Below the pieces are notes generated by a model. That model had not been told where the DNA came from. It did not search any database and saw only the letters and a list, made by a program, of their open reading frames with translations. A program made the position numbers and the translations under genes. DNA of 64,000 nt, from NCBI RefSeq assembly GCF_024282095.1, contig NZ_JAMWZS010000005.1, positions 1 to 64,000 of the forward strand, in the 5' to 3' direction. This document shows positions 11,786 to 53,920 of this stretch, piece by piece. The stretch's first letter is position 1. Every line of letters starts with the position of its first letter. The stretch is from Nitrosomonas sp. (GTDB lineage Bacteria > Pseudomonadota > Gammaproteobacteria > Burkholderiales > Nitrosomonadaceae).

Positions 11786-12791
11786 GGGGGTTTCCTAGAT
11801 TTTGTGTAAACGGAGTTTAATAGCGGAGGGGGATTCTCTCCTCGAATTGAATAGTAAACCTGTTTAACGCAGGCTTCCAATCTTTAATTGGCATAGACCA
11901 TTTTTTGGCGATATTGCTGAGAGCCAAATAGAACAATTTGATTACAGCGTTATCGTTAGGAAACGATCCGCGGTTTTTGCTGACTTTGCGTAGGCTTATG
12001 TTGACTGATTCAATCGCTTCCGGAAAGCCCTTCAAGCCATCAACACAGGCGATAAAGATATCCTGCACGCCACGGTTCTTGAGTTCAGTGACAACGCTGA
12101 GCCAGAACTTGGCACCCTCGGCCTGAGCAATCCATAAGCCCAGTATTTCTTTATGGCCCTCCATATGTTATGCCGATCGCCAGGTAAATCGCTTTGGTAC
12201 GAACGCTACCCGCGTCACGAACTTTGGCATGGATGCAGTCAAGATAGATAACAGGATACACCGCATTGAGAGGCCGAGATTGCCAGTGACCGTAGAAATA
12301 AGCGAAGGCGATACTTTCGGCGCCATACATTTCGGTGAAGTGCTGCTGGGTCTCACGCACTGTCATGCCACGGGCATACAGCGAAAGAATCTTGTCATCA
12401 AATCCCGCCCAGCGGGTTTGATGCTTGGAAATGATTTGCGGTTCAAAACGGTCTTCACGGTCACGGGGAATCTCGATGGGCAATTCACCTTCAGGGTCTT
12501 ACGACTTTTACCATTTCTGGCAGTGCCAGTGGGATTGGTTACCGTTTCGTAGTTATCGTGACCAAGATGCTCGATCATTTCTGCTTGCAGAGCACGCTCA
12601 ACCAGCGCTTTGGTGAGTTGCTTGAGAACACCATGCTCACCGATTAAATCTTGCGGTTTTTTGTAATCGGCCAGCAGGCTATCAATTAAGTCGGTCGACA
12701 GGGATTTGGGGGTAGTCATTTTTACTCCCAAAAAAGTATATAAGCAGTTTCCATGCTAAATGGCCATCTACACAAAATTATTTACACCCCC
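11786..12791 (-). mobile_element. Internally deleted IS256-family element
   Basis: The 26-bp ends are imperfect inverted repeats: both read GGGGGT, seven variable bases, then ATTTTGTGTA toward the inside (11786 and, on the other strand, 12791). Between them is an IS256 (mutator-type) transposase on the minus strand, broken into frames 12731-12363, 12483-12151 and 12164-11817. They read MTTPKSLSTDLIDSLLADYK, QIISKHQTRWAGFDDKILSL, then GHKEILGLWIAQAEGAKFW. A further in-frame internal deletion joins GFPEAIESV directly to NISLRKVSKNRGSFPND, removing the roughly 80 residues normally found there. At 1.0 kb it is shorter than the usual 1.3 kb. It could move only if a transposase acts in trans. No clear target duplication is visible. 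Confidence 0.85.
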
Positions 12792-13449
12792 ATTCCAACA
12801 TCAGTGGGCGTCCATTCCATTACTTCACCTCCTGAAAATAACCTGAAGATATCAGGAGTGATTTTTGATTTTTAGACGGTGAGGTTGGATGCTTACAAAA
12901 TACTCCTATTTTGTCGGTAAGTAACAAAAAGCGTCATATTGCCATCTGAGTATTCGTCAATATCTATTTTCTTAGATATCGCGCAGAATTATTCAAATTG
13001 ATATCTGGCGTATTAATTAAAATGAATTTATTTATCATTCACAATTCCATCAACTGATTGAATCATTGCTCTTTGATAAAAGAACTCCGCCATACCATCC
13101 GAGTGATAAAGTCTGTTACATAACCGCATTTAAACACATCAATATTACTTTACTCACGCTAAAGAGCAATCCAATCTGTTCGAGCGCCGCTTCAAAACTC
13201 TCCCCAACTACCTATCTAGGACGGTGCCCTGCTACGTAATCCATATCGATTCTCACAGCTCGTATCAAACAGATATACCCAGCAGCCATATTGTCCATAG
13301 CGCAAATGGATTAATAATTACCTCAGCTACGCTGAAAAGCTTATAACACGCATTCCAGCTTATACAACTGCAATATCCAAAGTTACTAGTTGTAGTTATT
13401 TATCACAATAATATTATATTGGCACAATTTGTGCTTTATTAGCACTGCA
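12792..13449. other. Intergenic region without recognisable gene
   Basis: About 660 bp between the IS256 remnant and the riboswitch. A stem CTCCTGA/TCAGGAG with a 16-base loop near 12829-12858 is followed by T-rich sequence on the plus strand and may be a weak terminator. No coding frame of substance or transposase similarity was found in the rest. Confidence 0.5.
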
Positions 13450-13545
13450 GTATGAAAAAGGCAAACTCTGCGAAAGCAGAGGACGCAAAGTCACTGATCT
13501 AACGGGCAAATGCCCCATGATGGCAGGACTGCCAGATAACGCCAC
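13450..13545 (+). promoter_or_regulatory. Cyclic-di-GMP-I (GEMM-I) riboswitch
   Basis: The core matches the GEMM-I aptamer in order: GGCAAAC, a hairpin CTCTGC-GAAA-GCAGAG with the conserved GAAA tetraloop, GGACGCAAAG, then CACTGATCTAA, and the 3' helix ATGGCAGGACTGCCA carrying the GGNAGG signature. These are the ligand-pocket segments of the class. It lies on the plus strand about 100 bases upstream of the secreted protein gene at 13646. The intervening leader has a 7-bp hairpin (GTATCGA 13574-13580 with TCGATAC 13592-13598) and TCCTT (13618-13622), which could pair with the AAGGA of the ribosome-binding site. Confidence 0.88.
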
Positions 13546-13645
13546 TCGTCTTATCGCACATGTGATTTGGTGAGTATCGAGCAATAAAACTTCGATACAC
13601 GTATCCGCGCAGTTCCGTCCTTTTAATTTTAAGGAGGAATCTAAT

Positions 13646-14833
13646 ATGAACACCAGTAATAAAGCACTACTGACTACCAGCTTGCTACCACTTGCTACCA
13701 TAAAACCCAATCTGCTCATTGCACATAAAAAAGCGCATCAGGCCATCCTGATTGCACTTATGTGCTTTATTAGCATGATCTCCATGTCTTGGGAAACAGC
13801 GCATGCCGGTGCTACAACACCGCCAGTAACCACGCCAGTTAAATGGCACCCAGGCCATTATTACTCGCTTATGGATCATGGAAAAGATGCTTCTTGGTAT
13901 TTGTCGATGGTGTACAAAGAACTCAAAGCAACGCCAGCGTTACGTGGAATACATATTCGTTACTCATGGGCAGAGCTAGAAACATCTGAAGGCGTATATA
14001 ATTTTTCGTCGATTGCAAAGCGTCTTACTGAGCTCAGTGCAATAGGCAAGCGCCTGATTATTATGTTGGATATGAGAACCTTCGATCCTTTAGAAGAGCT
14101 CGTGCCTGACTATGTAAAAACGGCTAAGTACGAAGAAGGCGTATTTACTTATGATAGTGTCAATCAAGAAGGTCAACAAGGGAGTAATATTAAGTTGTGG
14201 AATCCGCTAGTACGTGACCGCTTGACCGCACTAATCCGTGCATTGGGAAATCGTTTCAATTCTAACGCTTACTTTGAAGGCATCGGCTTAACCGAAACTG
14301 CTATGGGACAGGCAGTAATACCATTAACCAGTGCTCAAATAAACGACTATTACGCCAATATGCTCAACCTGCAACAACAGATGCGTAATTACTTCCCCAA
14401 TACGGTGACATTCCAGTTCACGAATTATCCACGCCCTATTCTAGAATCATTTATCGGCAGCTTGAATACAATGGGAACAGGGTTGGGTGGACCGGATGTT
14501 TTCCTAGAAGAACCAGGACTTCAGTACCCAGGCACTCCAAAAGGAGTCTACAACTACTATCCTGAACTTTCCGGGGTTGTGCCTCTAACGCCTTCGGTAA
14601 TGTCAGGTAATTATAAAAATACCAGAACCGACGGAACTGGTTATCAACCTACCATTTCAGAACTCCTAACTTTTGCTCGGGATACGTTGAAAGCTAACTA
14701 CATTTTCTGGACACGCAATCCAGATTATTATTCCAAGGTACTGGAAACGTTGAATATGAAAGCTCAGAAGATCACACCTTCAGGTGGATTGGATGCAACT
14801 TGTCCCAGTACTTATTCCTCTTGCGTCAACTAG
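13646..14833 (+). CDS. Secreted TIM-barrel-like protein, putative glycoside hydrolase
   Basis: A 395-residue protein with a long N-terminal region ending in a hydrophobic signal (about residues 31-54, likely cleaved after AHA), so it is exported. The mature part resembles (alpha/beta)8 glycosidases of the GH5/GH42 type: ALRGIHIRYSWAELETSEGVYN is the usual early beta-strand and the following strand reads KRLIIMLDMRT. Possible acids are Glu217 (GIGLTETAMG) and Glu288/289 (VFLEEPG); which are catalytic cannot be told from sequence alone. Strong AAGGAGG site at 13631-13637. It is the only gene after the c-di-GMP riboswitch, and a terminator hairpin follows, so it is probably a single-gene unit. 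A biofilm-matrix role is inference. Confidence 0.8.
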   Translation: MNTSNKALLTTSLLPLATIKPNLLIAHKKAHQAILIALMCFISMISMSWETAHAGATTPPVTTPVKWHPGHYYSLMDHGKDASWYLSMVYKELKATPALRGIHIRYSWAELETSEGVYNFSSIAKRLTELSAIGKRLIIMLDMRTFDPLEELVPDYVKTAKYEEGVFTYDSVNQEGQQGSNIKLWNPLVRDRLTALIRALGNRFNSNAYFEGIGLTETAMGQAVIPLTSAQINDYYANMLNLQQQMRNYFPNTVTFQFTNYPRPILESFIGSLNTMGTGLGGPDVFLEEPGLQYPGTPKGVYNYYPELSGVVPLTPSVMSGNYKNTRTDGTGYQPTISELLTFARDTLKANYIFWTRNPDYYSKVLETLNMKAQKITPSGGLDATCPSTYSSCVN

Positions 14834-14858
14834 AAATTTTCTGAACGACCTTGCTGCG

Positions 14859-14886
14859 AAGAACATACTTCCCAAAGTATGTTCTT
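14859..14886 (+). terminator. Terminator hairpin
   Basis: A perfect 12-bp stem AAGAACATACTT / AAGTATGTTCTT with loop CCCA, 26 bases after the stop of the secreted protein gene. The T run after it is short, so efficiency is uncertain. Confidence 0.75.
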
Positions 14887-14914
14887 CATCTTGATTATTG
14901 AGCCAGCCATTAAA

Positions 14915-26119: not shown

Positions 26120-28618
26120 TCATTTTTCGGCTGCCTTTAAAGGTTTGGCAGACTCTGATCGAAACAGATAAGGCGTGGCGAGTTCGTATCCCTGAACATA
26201 GTCGACACCGATTTCTTCAAGTAACTTTAATGTTTCCGCATTTTCAACCCATTCAGCGATTGTTTTCAATCCCATCACGTGCCCAATGTGATTAATGGAC
26301 TCGACCATCGCCCGGTCAACTGGATCGCTGAGTATGCCTTTAACCAGCTGCCCGTCAATTTTGAGGTAATCCAGCGGAATATTCTTCAAATAACCGAATG
26401 ACGATAAGCCGCTACCGAAATCATCCATCGAGAAATGACAACCCAGTGCTTTAAGGGTCGAGATGAATTTCATGACATGTTGTAGATCCGCCAGTGCAAC
26501 ATTTTCGGTAATTTCAAAACAAATGCTGGATGGATCGCTGTTGTGGATCTTCAGATTCTCTACTACAAAATCAAGAAAATCTTCGTTTCCCAATGCATGC
26601 GCTGATAGATTGATCGCGTACATATTTTTGGACCGGCGCTGCGAACGAGTTTTGAGTAGCTTAAGTGATTCCTCGATTACCCAACGGTCAATCGCCAGCA
26701 TTTGATCATATCGTTCGGCAGAGGGGAGAAATGAACCGGGAAAGATCAATTGATTGTGCTCACCTCGTAGCCGCAGCAGAAATTCACCGTGTTCTTCAAG
26801 CTCATTCTTATTGGAAATGGCGATGATCGGTTGAAAATATAAACATAGCCGCTGATTTGCGATAGCTTTTTGCAGGCGTGGTAACCATTGCATTTCGCCG
26901 GATCTTTTTTGCAACACATTATCATCGGATTGATAAATATGAACTCGGTTCCGCCCTCGATCCTTGGCAGCGAAACAAGCGCTATCCGCTGCACTCAATG
27001 CGCTCACTAGGCCTTCATTATTATGGGTAATCGGGAACAATCCGATACTGACGCCAATTGTGAAAGTTTTATCCTGCCACTGAAAGCGGAAGTTTTGCAC
27101 TAATTCACGCAGTGCATTGGCAACTTGTACCGCTTCATTTTTCGGGCAATGCTCCAAAATGATTCCGAACTCATCACCCCCTAGTCGTGCCAGAGTGTCG
27201 CGCGCGCGCAGCTTGGAATGTAACAGTGCCGTTACCTGACGCAGCAATTCATCACCTGCGTTGTGTCCACAGGTATCATTGATGACTTTAAACTGATCCA
27301 GGTCGAGATATAACAGTGCGTGGATATCGTGTTTACGAGTCGATGTTAGAATTTTGTTGAGGCGATTTTCAAATTCATCGCGATTTAACAAGCCGGTTAA
27401 GGAATCATGTGCTGCTTGATAAGCAAGTTTTTGCGTCAATTTGCGTTGTTCCGTGACATCCCGAAAAGTCAATACAGCACCGATCACGTCTTTCTTATGA
27501 TTTAAAATCGGCGCTACGGAATAATCGATAATGCACTCCTGTTTATCTTTTTGGACCAGTAGGCATTCTTGGTTTCTACCGGATTTGTCGGATTTATTCA
27601 GGCAATCCGTGAGTGGGTTTTCGATCAACACCTGTGTCGTCACATCTTTAATACGAAAAATATCCTGTAACGAAGCACCATGTGCATCGCTATTACGCCA
27701 GCCGGTAAATAATTCCGCAATTGGATTCAGATAAGTGATCTTTCCTAAAGAATCGGTAGTGATGACTGCGTCACCAATACTGGCCAATGTGACCTGAAAG
27801 AGTTCTTTTTCCTGATGCAGGATTTCATTGGATAAGGCAAGTGCTTCAGTGCGCTCAGCCACGCGTTGTTCCAGCTGTTCCTTGGCGTCTTGCAAGGCTT
27901 TCTGTGTAAGATCCTTTTCCGCGATTTGTGTTTGCAATTCCTGATTCATCGCATTCAGATAATCTTTGGCCCGGAGTAAGCGGTTTAATAGATCGAAATT
28001 ATCAAATCGAAATTTAAGGGCATCGATAATGGTGTAGTGCAGTTGACGCGAAATCTTGCCTATCAGGATAATAAAAAGTAGATACGTGCATGCTATTGCA
28101 ATATAGGTATCACTTTCATGGGTGACTACTTGGTAGAGATAAGGAAAAATAACGGGTACTGAGAAAACCAGAAAAGCATTTTTGTACGATGATAAGGTAG
28201 ACATCGCTCCCGCGATCATGCCGCCAAGCAGGAAGGCCAGGAATAATTGGTGAACCGCGCTGTCTTCAACAAAAAAAATGCCTCCCGCTATACTCCAGAC
28301 TACGCTCGAAAGAAATACACCTAATACAAAGAGGCGGCCCCAAGCGGCTGACTCGGCTACCGAAGGATTTTTTCGAAAATATGCCCTGACGAGCAGGAAT
28401 CTGACAAAAGTAAGTAGACAGACCGTTGTTAACCACCCCAGAAGCCAGCTCTTGGGAACATAATCCCAAAAAACCAAGACGAGCGCCAACGCGATGAAGA
28501 GCGTACCAAGAAAAGCAGATGTAGCTTGTTGGTGAAGCAGCTTTATCTGTTCTGCAAGCAGGGCGGCAGAGTAATTGGATTGCTGAAACTGAGAATCTTC
28601 GTTATGGTTGTCCAACAT
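26120..28618 (-). CDS. Membrane PAS-GGDEF-EAL protein (c-di-GMP turnover)
   Basis: About 832 residues from the start chosen. Order: an N-terminal region of six or seven membrane helices (about 20-215), a coiled-coil linker (LTQKALQDAKEQLEQRVAER), a PAS domain (about 280-400, GKITYLNPIAELFTGW), a GGDEF domain with the intact active site (LARLGGDEFGIIL), and an EAL domain with DDFGSGLSSFGYLK intact and the name motif read as EFLLRL instead of EALLR. Diguanylate cyclase activity is likely; the phosphodiesterase half keeps the DDFG metal site. The ATG at 28618 follows AAGGGA; the ATG at 28642 lacks a ribosome-binding site. It is a possible source of the signal read by the riboswitch at 13.5 kb (inference). 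Confidence 0.9.
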   Translation of the reverse strand: MLDNHNEDSQFQQSNYSAALLAEQIKLLHQQATSAFLGTLFIALALVLVFWDYVPKSWLLGWLTTVCLLTFVRFLLVRAYFRKNPSVAESAAWGRLFVLGVFLSSVVWSIAGGIFFVEDSAVHQLFLAFLLGGMIAGAMSTLSSYKNAFLVFSVPVIFPYLYQVVTHESDTYIAIACTYLLFIILIGKISRQLHYTIIDALKFRFDNFDLLNRLLRAKDYLNAMNQELQTQIAEKDLTQKALQDAKEQLEQRVAERTEALALSNEILHQEKELFQVTLASIGDAVITTDSLGKITYLNPIAELFTGWRNSDAHGASLQDIFRIKDVTTQVLIENPLTDCLNKSDKSGRNQECLLVQKDKQECIIDYSVAPILNHKKDVIGAVLTFRDVTEQRKLTQKLAYQAAHDSLTGLLNRDEFENRLNKILTSTRKHDIHALLYLDLDQFKVINDTCGHNAGDELLRQVTALLHSKLRARDTLARLGGDEFGIILEHCPKNEAVQVANALRELVQNFRFQWQDKTFTIGVSIGLFPITHNNEGLVSALSAADSACFAAKDRGRNRVHIYQSDDNVLQKRSGEMQWLPRLQKAIANQRLCLYFQPIIAISNKNELEEHGEFLLRLRGEHNQLIFPGSFLPSAERYDQMLAIDRWVIEESLKLLKTRSQRRSKNMYAINLSAHALGNEDFLDFVVENLKIHNSDPSSICFEITENVALADLQHVMKFISTLKALGCHFSMDDFGSGLSSFGYLKNIPLDYLKIDGQLVKGILSDPVDRAMVESINHIGHVMGLKTIAEWVENAETLKLLEEIGVDYVQGYELATPYLFRSESAKPLKAAEK

Positions 28619-44821: not shown

Positions 44822-45141
44822 ATGAAGAATCAAATCAGTTATTCACCGGAAGTACGAGAACGAGCGGTAAGATTGGTATTCGAGCAGCAAAAGGAGCATG
44901 GATCGCAGTGGTCGGCGATCAAATCGATTGCATCAAAGATTGGCTGCACAGCGGAAACATTGCGGACATGGGTAAGAAGAGCGGAGACCGATCAGGGAAT
45001 TCGGGGAGGCATGTCGACTGCGGATCGGGAAAGGCTCAAGGAATTGGAGCGGGAGAATCGGGAATTAAAGCGAGCCAACGAGATATTGCGTAAGGCATCG
45101 GCTTATTTTGCCCAGGCGGAGCTCGACCGCCGACCGAAATA

Positions 45142-45142
<1 letters not shown>
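44822..45142 (+). CDS. IS3-family transposase OrfA
   Basis: A 106-residue DNA-binding subunit. The N-terminal helix-turn-helix ([20 protein letters not shown] and [16 protein letters not shown]) is followed by a leucine-zipper-like helix ([20 protein letters not shown]). It overlaps the orfB start as TAATG, so orfB is reached by reinitiation or frameshifting. Typical for IS3/IS150-type elements. Confidence 0.9.
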
Positions 45143-46041
<899 letters not shown>

Positions 46042-53284: not shown

Positions 53285-53920
53285 TGAATCCCCACGGGTT
53301 TCCCGGAGATTAAATGATTTGAGAGGGGGAAAAGAAGAAGAGTCAAATCAGTTATTCACCGGAAGTACGAGAACGAGCGGCAAGATTAGTATTTGAGCAG
53401 CAAAAAGAGCATTGGGATGCGATCAAATCGATCGCATCGAAGATTGGCTGCACAGCGGAAACATTGCGAACTTGGGTAAGGCGGGTGGAGACCGATCAGG
53501 GGGTTCGTGCAGGCATGTCGACATCGGATCTGGAAAGGCTCAAGGAATTGGAGCGTGAGAATCGGGAATTAAAGCGGGCCAGCGAGATATTACGGAAGGC
53601 ATCAGCTTATTTTGCGGAAGGATGCTCGACCGCCGGCCGAAGTGATGGCAATATTTGTCGATCAACATAACAGTACGGGGTCGAGCCGATCTCGCTGGCA
53701 AATTCAGATTGCCTCGTCGAGCAACTCATGAGCATAAAGCACGACAACGCGATCCTGATCGGCTAACCGATCGCATCAAACGAGACTTGGCGCTTGAACG
53801 CGATGTGCAGCGTATCTGGGAAAAGAACTTCAAAGTCTATGGCGCTGACAAAGTATGGCGGCAACTATTGCGTGAAGGTATTCGCGTTGCCCGTTGTACA
53901 GTTGAACGGTTGATGAAGAA
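53285..53920 (+). mobile_element. IS3-family insertion sequence, copy 2 (truncated)
   Basis: Same element as copy 1, starting with the left repeat TGAATCCCCACGGGTTTCCCGG. The orfA start ATG is changed to AAG, and a 9-bp stretch is missing near its front, so orfA is dead. orfB keeps CAG where copy 1 has TAG but has a frameshift and stops near its start, and is cut after [19 protein letters not shown]...LMKK. The right end and most of orfB are missing, replaced by the 68-bp repeat. Confidence 0.85.

Follow-up and report, generated by a model that had tools for sequence, protein, structure and literature searches.

A complete c-di-GMP-I (GEMM-I) riboswitch lies upstream of a gene in Nitrosomonas sp. 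that encodes a predicted TIM-barrel protein, here called F1, and it probably switches off translation of what would be a secreted, glycosidase-like matrix enzyme with a role in dispersal. The window, meaning the entire stretch of 64 000 nucleotides that was analysed, contains the switch as a single unit and not in tandem; its features are listed in Table 1. Beyond a previous sequence-only reading of the same DNA, the present analysis covers the direction of the switch, the structure of its output, a second target family (F2) and the expansion of F1 paralogues.

Table 1. Features of the riboswitch locus in the window
Feature	Position	Strand	Basis
c-di-GMP-I (GEMM-I) aptamer, complete	13450..13536	+	RF01051, 86.6 bits, model 1-87/87; G at model position 11
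Possible closing helix P1 (13446-13453 with 13536-13543)	13446..13543	+	71.5% of cells paired, 47 leaders
Proposed anti-aptamer helix	13526..13616	+	13526-13532 and 13535-13542 with 13599-13605 and 13609-13616
SD-hiding hairpin (13613-13622 with 13631-13639)	13613..13639	+	RNAalifold on 47 leaders
Shine-Dalgarno region AAGGAGGAA	13631..13639	+	Sequence; recurs in leaders bearing the riboswitch
F1 protein, 395 aa, probably secreted, TIM-barrel, glycosidase-like	13646..14833	+	ORF, AlphaFold2, Foldseek
Terminator-like hairpin 3′ of the gene, 13 pairs	14858..14887	+	Pattern scan only

Aptamer, expression platform and proposed direction of the switch

The interval 13450-13645 consists of the aptamer and its expression platform. 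Using cmscan with Rfam 15, the aptamer matches RF01051 over the full length of the model at 86.6 bits (E 1e-15), where the gathering score is 35, and with zero non-standard modelled pairs flagged. The sequence-only reading had proposed a c-di-GMP-I riboswitch with all pocket segments in order and had named a search with this covariance model as the check; the strong match bears it out and, judged by its sequence, the element is a c-di-GMP-I riboswitch, a known class. The aptamer ends 109 nt before the ATG at 13646, which is preceded by AAGGAGGAA, in keeping with the earlier estimate of about 100 bases. The host genome (2.8 Mb in 81 contigs) contains three GEMM-I matches, of which the window aptamer scores best; the other two reach 56 and 37.2 bits, the latter barely exceeding the cut-off, and none of 14 control genomes contains a match. 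The folding of the window leader is bettered by only one of 200 shuffles. Matches above cut-off to GGDEF (25) and EAL (17) in the host indicate that it can probably both make and break the ligand. GGDEF and EAL matches adjoin within the window at ∼26171-27415 (− strand), ∼12.6 kb from the riboswitch.

The ligand-selectivity column of the aptamer (model position 11, which we take to be Vc2 G20) is occupied by G in all 47 aligned leaders, including that of the window. According to the available portions of two papers, G at this position favours c-di-GMP and A favours cGAMP, the latter being preferred by GEMM-I variants with A (PMC9481103, PMC6274999). Recognition of another cyclic dinucleotide (3′,3′-cGAMP) is opposed by the invariant G and is very improbable. 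It is hardly credible that the riboswitch is a relic without present function: degenerate leaders are known (L106 and L137) and one leader, L034, is parted from its gene, but the window has a complete aptamer, an SD hairpin and an open frame, and the spacing between aptamer and ATG is kept across diverged genomes (177-201 nt from the aptamer core to the ATG in 47 distinct leaders).

The expression platform was analysed on these 47 leaders, which were picked with a pattern that requires an SD-like motif, so that the 3′ arm of the SD hairpin is favoured by construction. In this hairpin UUCC.UCCUU pairs with AAGGAGGAA and covers the ribosome-binding site. It was recovered unprompted in the RNAalifold consensus, with 96.2% of its cells paired compared with 49-67% when slid. 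Four cells show two-sided changes, a number matched by none of 500 shuffles; these changes involve two pairs, and 44 of the 500 shuffles match two pairs. The 3′ strand of the aptamer, GGACUGC..GAUAACGC, is in turn complementary to a downstream element, CGUAUC..GCAGUUCC, and the proposed anti-aptamer helix that they would form overlaps both the aptamer and the SD hairpin. Its downstream element overlaps the 5′ arm of the SD hairpin and can therefore have only one partner at a time. The cells of this helix are paired in 93.9% of cases in the 47 leaders (29-52% when slid) and in 96.4% in a set of 18 leaders. Its covariation beats the shuffles in the 18-leader set (four pairs, 0/500 shuffles) and is mixed in the 47 leaders, with six two-sided cells (4/500 shuffles as high), a covariation score of 0.092 (3/500), three two-sided pairs (81/500) and pair types at chance level (465/500); the helix slid by +2 gives 12 two-sided cells. 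It is absent from the RNAalifold consensus of the 47 leaders, which is a single-structure output. A closing helix, P1, is weakly supported by the alignment, its paired fraction being compared with 19-52% when slid; it was rejected as a covarying switch helix, with covariation not above shuffles in the 47 leaders. A pattern scan of the + strand between aptamer and ATG returned zero terminator-like sites, and transcription termination was therefore rejected as the output.

The direction of the switch was assessed by forced folding of the 47 leaders, in which ligand and tertiary energies are left out. The mean pair probability of the SD hairpin is 0.88 with the aptamer forced and 0.23 with the first anti-aptamer helix forced. 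For transcripts that end before the SD, stability favours the first anti-aptamer helix by an average of 4.8 kcal/mol and does so in 46 of the 47 leaders; once the leader is complete, it favours the aptamer state over the anti-aptamer state by a mean of 1.55 kcal/mol. In 42 of the 47 leaders the aptamer is disturbed more by the real platform than by the average shuffled one, and 209 of the 940 shuffles equal the real platform in this; for the window leader, six of 20 shuffled platforms are as disturbing as the real one. Equilibrium folding of the full-length leader failed as proof of direction: the SD hairpin prevails whether the leader is free (mean 0.83) or has the aptamer forced (0.90; 18 leaders). 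The SD itself is unpaired with a mean of only 0.041 in the free state and 0.023 in the forced one, the free state leaving it marginally more exposed in 17 of these 18 leaders. As the hairpin is kept in both equilibrium states and the aptamer state is the better one, a switch must be kinetic or factor-assisted.

Provided that the element is a switch, these calculations make a kinetic translational OFF switch a good likelihood. With c-di-GMP low, the 3′ strand of the aptamer would pair, during transcription of the leader, with CGUAUC..GCAGUUCC, which, so occupied, could not hide the ribosome-binding site, and the protein would be made. At high c-di-GMP the ligand-bound aptamer would retain its own 3′ strand, the freed UUCC.UCCUU would pair with AAGGAGGAA and translation would stop. 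The enzyme may thus trim extracellular polysaccharide when c-di-GMP falls, i.e. on dispersal. A translational ON switch, in which c-di-GMP raises the output and the protein builds or remodels the matrix, is unlikely. It has a parallel in the class I element Vc1 of Vibrio cholerae, which, according to the accessible part of the report, precedes the gene for GbpA, an attachment factor for N-acetylglucosamine surfaces, and acts positively (PMC4744006); furthermore, a default-OFF state is conceivable because the ligand-free full leader hides the SD at equilibrium. The ON direction is opposed by the forced folds, in which the SD hairpin is consistently stronger with the aptamer than with the anti-aptamer helix, in 47 of 47 leaders, and by inspection no anti-sequestering element that requires a formed aptamer was noticed.

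Structure and likely function of F1

In F1 a long N-terminal stretch leads up to a hydrophobic segment at approximately residues 33-47, followed by AHA at residues 52-54, an arrangement that resembles a signal peptide by eye, as the sequence-only reading had noted. The hydrophobic segment and the AHA motif make it likely that the window protein is exported. It has zero Pfam matches up to E 1 and scores 11.5 bits against the NCBIfam GH35 model, below the cut-off of 500. Among 29 F1 members, 17 touch Pfam Glyco_hydro_42 (best E 4.8e-5) and all 29 touch NCBIfam GH35 within a limit of E 0.1 (best E 4.2e-7), and a profile of the 29 compared with the PDB matches GH35 chains with E 6e-4 over ∼87 positions. 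F1 thus shares with the GH35 and GH42 β-galactosidases a TIM barrel and a weak profile similarity; assignment to either family was rejected, since the likeness covers a single segment, the window protein falls far short of the GH35 cut-off and Pfam has no match to it.

The AlphaFold2 model of F1, computed from an alignment of 78 sequences, is confident (pLDDT 89.6, pTM 0.82) and contains eight barrel strands. A Foldseek search with this model, with a limit of E 0.001, gave 571 PDB matches. The best 50 of the 571 are glycoside hydrolases of several families (β-amylase, GH164, GH5-type, GH35, GH42, α-glucosidases and α-galactosidase), with query TM-scores of 0.40-0.53 and no clear winner among them. 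The model therefore suggests that F1 is glycosidase-like at the level of the fold; to this extent the earlier description as glycosidase-like holds, and it does not extend to a claim by any family model on the window protein. The barrel is presumably unrelated to GbpA.

Strand 4 of the barrel ends with Glu217 and strand 6 with Asp284. Each of these acidic residues is present in 77 of the 78 sequences, the exception being in both cases the same long-branched aberrant copy (L084). A conserved acid at the end of strand 7 is absent from the 78 sequences, a further difference from GH35 and GH42. In clan GH-A the TIM barrel carries one Glu at the end of strand 4 and another, the nucleophile, at the end of strand 7. 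F1 has the barrel and the strand-4 Glu217, lacks the strand-7 acid and was not placed in this clan. Glu217 and Asp284 may instead form a strand-4/strand-6 catalytic pair. The lack of a conserved strand-7 acid, and the fact that the window protein is above the cut-off of no family model, would suit a non-catalytic carbohydrate-binding or matrix scaffold protein. We consider this somewhat doubtful, as the near-invariance of Glu217 and Asp284 and their joint loss in L084 are what an active-site pair would show, and catalytic pairs on strands 4 and 6 are known in clan GH-D. An enzyme thus remains our preferred reading of F1.

Recurrence of the leader and a second target family

F1 matches occur in 36 of 125 genomes of the host's family, with a maximum of 14 per genome and five in the host. 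A scan of 84 980 species genomes returned 169 F1 relatives, and the best 80, from 78 loci, were retained; within these 80 the titles are Nitrosomonas or betaproteobacteria, apart from eight that are Nitrospira or Nitrospiraceae and include the complete chromosome of Candidatus Nitrospira defluvii. The nearest named relatives are Nitrosomonas, which agrees with the earlier attribution to an ammonia oxidiser; a close copy, at 78% identity, is present in the culturable strain Nitrosomonas sp. Nm84. F1 is thus rich in paralogues in Nitrosomonas and is also present in Nitrospira. The Nitrospira copies (L102, L103, L110, L111, L122, L123, L135 and L138) occupy two separate positions in the tree, which suggests exchange between nitrifiers. 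These eight loci have zero Rfam matches, and riboswitch control of the Nitrospira copies was rejected. The four other host copies of F1 are single, lack an aptamer just upstream and lie among genes that look unrelated by eye, so that genomic context was rejected as a clue to the substrate. Upstream of the window leader, broken transposase-like reading frames, which presumably resemble IS256, are present at 11817-12731 (− strand). Elsewhere in the window are two ALIL pseudoknots (RF01497), at 45100-45216 and 53604-53716 (+ strand; 91.2 and 51.8 bits, cut-off 50), which we take to be frameshift signals of IS3-type transposases.

The association of riboswitch and F1 is not a one-off. When 150 listed F1 places were compared with 151 listed riboswitch places, lists in which absence is not proof, 37 of the 150 F1 places, spread over 27 of the 32 genomes represented, had a same-strand aptamer upstream, closer than 700 nt, and 43 of the 151 aptamers were accounted for in this way. 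The majority of listed copies (113 of 150) have no listed aptamer nearby, and in five genomes (G036, G046, G056, G069 and G092) no listed F1 copy has a listed upstream aptamer. The leader is distributed patchily over a tree of 74 F1 members, 19 of them labelled as having the switch: the label needs nine changes, at least eight of which are forced by well supported branches, and the leader has therefore been gained or lost repeatedly and was not inherited by one clade. In six genomes two complete riboswitch units, 240-243 nt apart, precede an F1 copy (loci L143, L147, L151, L155, L156 and L157). Each unit has its own SD and ATG, and the first opens a frame of 5-6 codons (MNIIP, MNIIPQ, MNIILR or MNIIPR).

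The other two GEMM-I elements of the host (L002 on contig C56 and L003 on contig C38) lie ahead of the genes for an RTX serralysin-like protease and a PEP-CTERM protein, the second element being the one of only 37.2 bits; the whole GEMM-I set of the host thus faces proteins of exported types. Elsewhere in the family, GEMM-I elements (L059 in G030 and L043 in G100) stand before a subtilase and before a protein that has a carbohydrate-binding domain.

Apparently the same leader precedes a different protein, F2 (∼450 aa, probably secreted), in other Nitrosomonas genomes. Three of four F2 members tested have weak Pfam Polysacc_lyase matches (5.6e-5 to 0.007, below cut-off), and in a comparison of one member with the PDB a C-terminal stretch is related to a domain of chitinase A1. 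One F1 and one F2 protein gave no meaningful alignment with each other, and homology between the families was rejected. F2 matches occur in 16 of the 125 genomes and are strong (E below 1e-70) in 12; F1 is also found only in G046 and, weakly, in G054 among these 12. The sole listed aptamer of G046 precedes F2. In one further genome (L034; G034:C1:942364-942450) the GEMM-I leader ends inside the Shine-Dalgarno sequence and an F2 gene follows ∼1 kb beyond, which looks like the result of an insertion that separated the gene from its switch.

Region by region, F1 and F2 leaders have mean nucleotide identities to each other of 0.89 (aptamer), 0.49 (linker), 0.79 (platform) and 0.57 (first 24 coding bases); the corresponding values within F1 are 0.89, 0.55, 0.80 and 0.65. 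An opening motif, M-x(2-4)-[NDHY]-[QKE], stands behind the switch in 24 of 35 F1 and five of nine F2 proteins and in one of 55 F1 proteins without a switch, a comparison in which the rules for picking the start codon differ between the switch and no-switch sets. Tentatively, and at somewhat less than an even chance, we propose that Nitrosomonas has a transferable cassette, made up of aptamer, translational platform, start and the first codons before the signal peptide, which fronts various F1 members and, in other lineages, the polysaccharide-lyase-like F2, and which may place one or two secreted sugar-active proteins per genome under direct repression by c-di-GMP.

Relation to known systems and significance

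The window element shares with the RF01051 class a complete aptamer, G at the c-di-GMP selectivity position and a location in the 5′ leader, and differs from it in a target protein without a Pfam match. The output also differs from that of Bc1, for which the consulted part of the report describes two intrinsic terminators (PMC11218506), here replaced by an SD-hiding hairpin and a proposed competing helix. Vc1-gbpA is likewise a class I element before a carbohydrate-associated protein and, as far as the accessible part of the report goes, acts positively, whereas OFF is predicted here (PMC4744006). Tandem c-di-GMP-I doublets are common, 347 being given in the part of the report consulted (PMC9481103); the doublets before F1 belong with these and differ in that both units come with an SD and an ATG of their own and in the frame of 5-6 codons that the first one opens. 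A GEMM-I element before a carbohydrate-associated protein and tandem GEMM-I doublets are thus already known from these sources. We found no description of a c-di-GMP riboswitch in Nitrosomonas among open-licence PMC papers, some of them represented by the title or the start of the abstract, and no report in open-licence PMC papers of a c-di-GMP-I riboswitch with a glycoside hydrolase. As far as this literature shows, the presence of the riboswitch in Nitrosomonas, the family that it targets and the occurrence of the proposed cassette before two unrelated families are new. The earlier suggestion of undescribed biology stands with respect to Nitrosomonas, and the idea is less new than was then held because of the Vc1-gbpA precedent.

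Nitrosomonas (ammonia-oxidizing) and Nitrospira (nitrite-oxidizing) are partners in nitrifying flocs. With up to 14 matches per genome and a presence in both genera, F1 is a candidate for an unrecognized glycan system of nitrifiers. The biofilm formation of ammonia oxidizers is described as poorly understood in the portion consulted of a paper on Nitrosomonas europaea (PMC6711990). That the leader stands before both F1 and the unrelated F2 suggests that c-di-GMP directly controls the sugar coat of the cell, and an RNA that couples c-di-GMP directly to a sugar-active protein, probably a secreted one, would make biofilm control testable with a single reporter.
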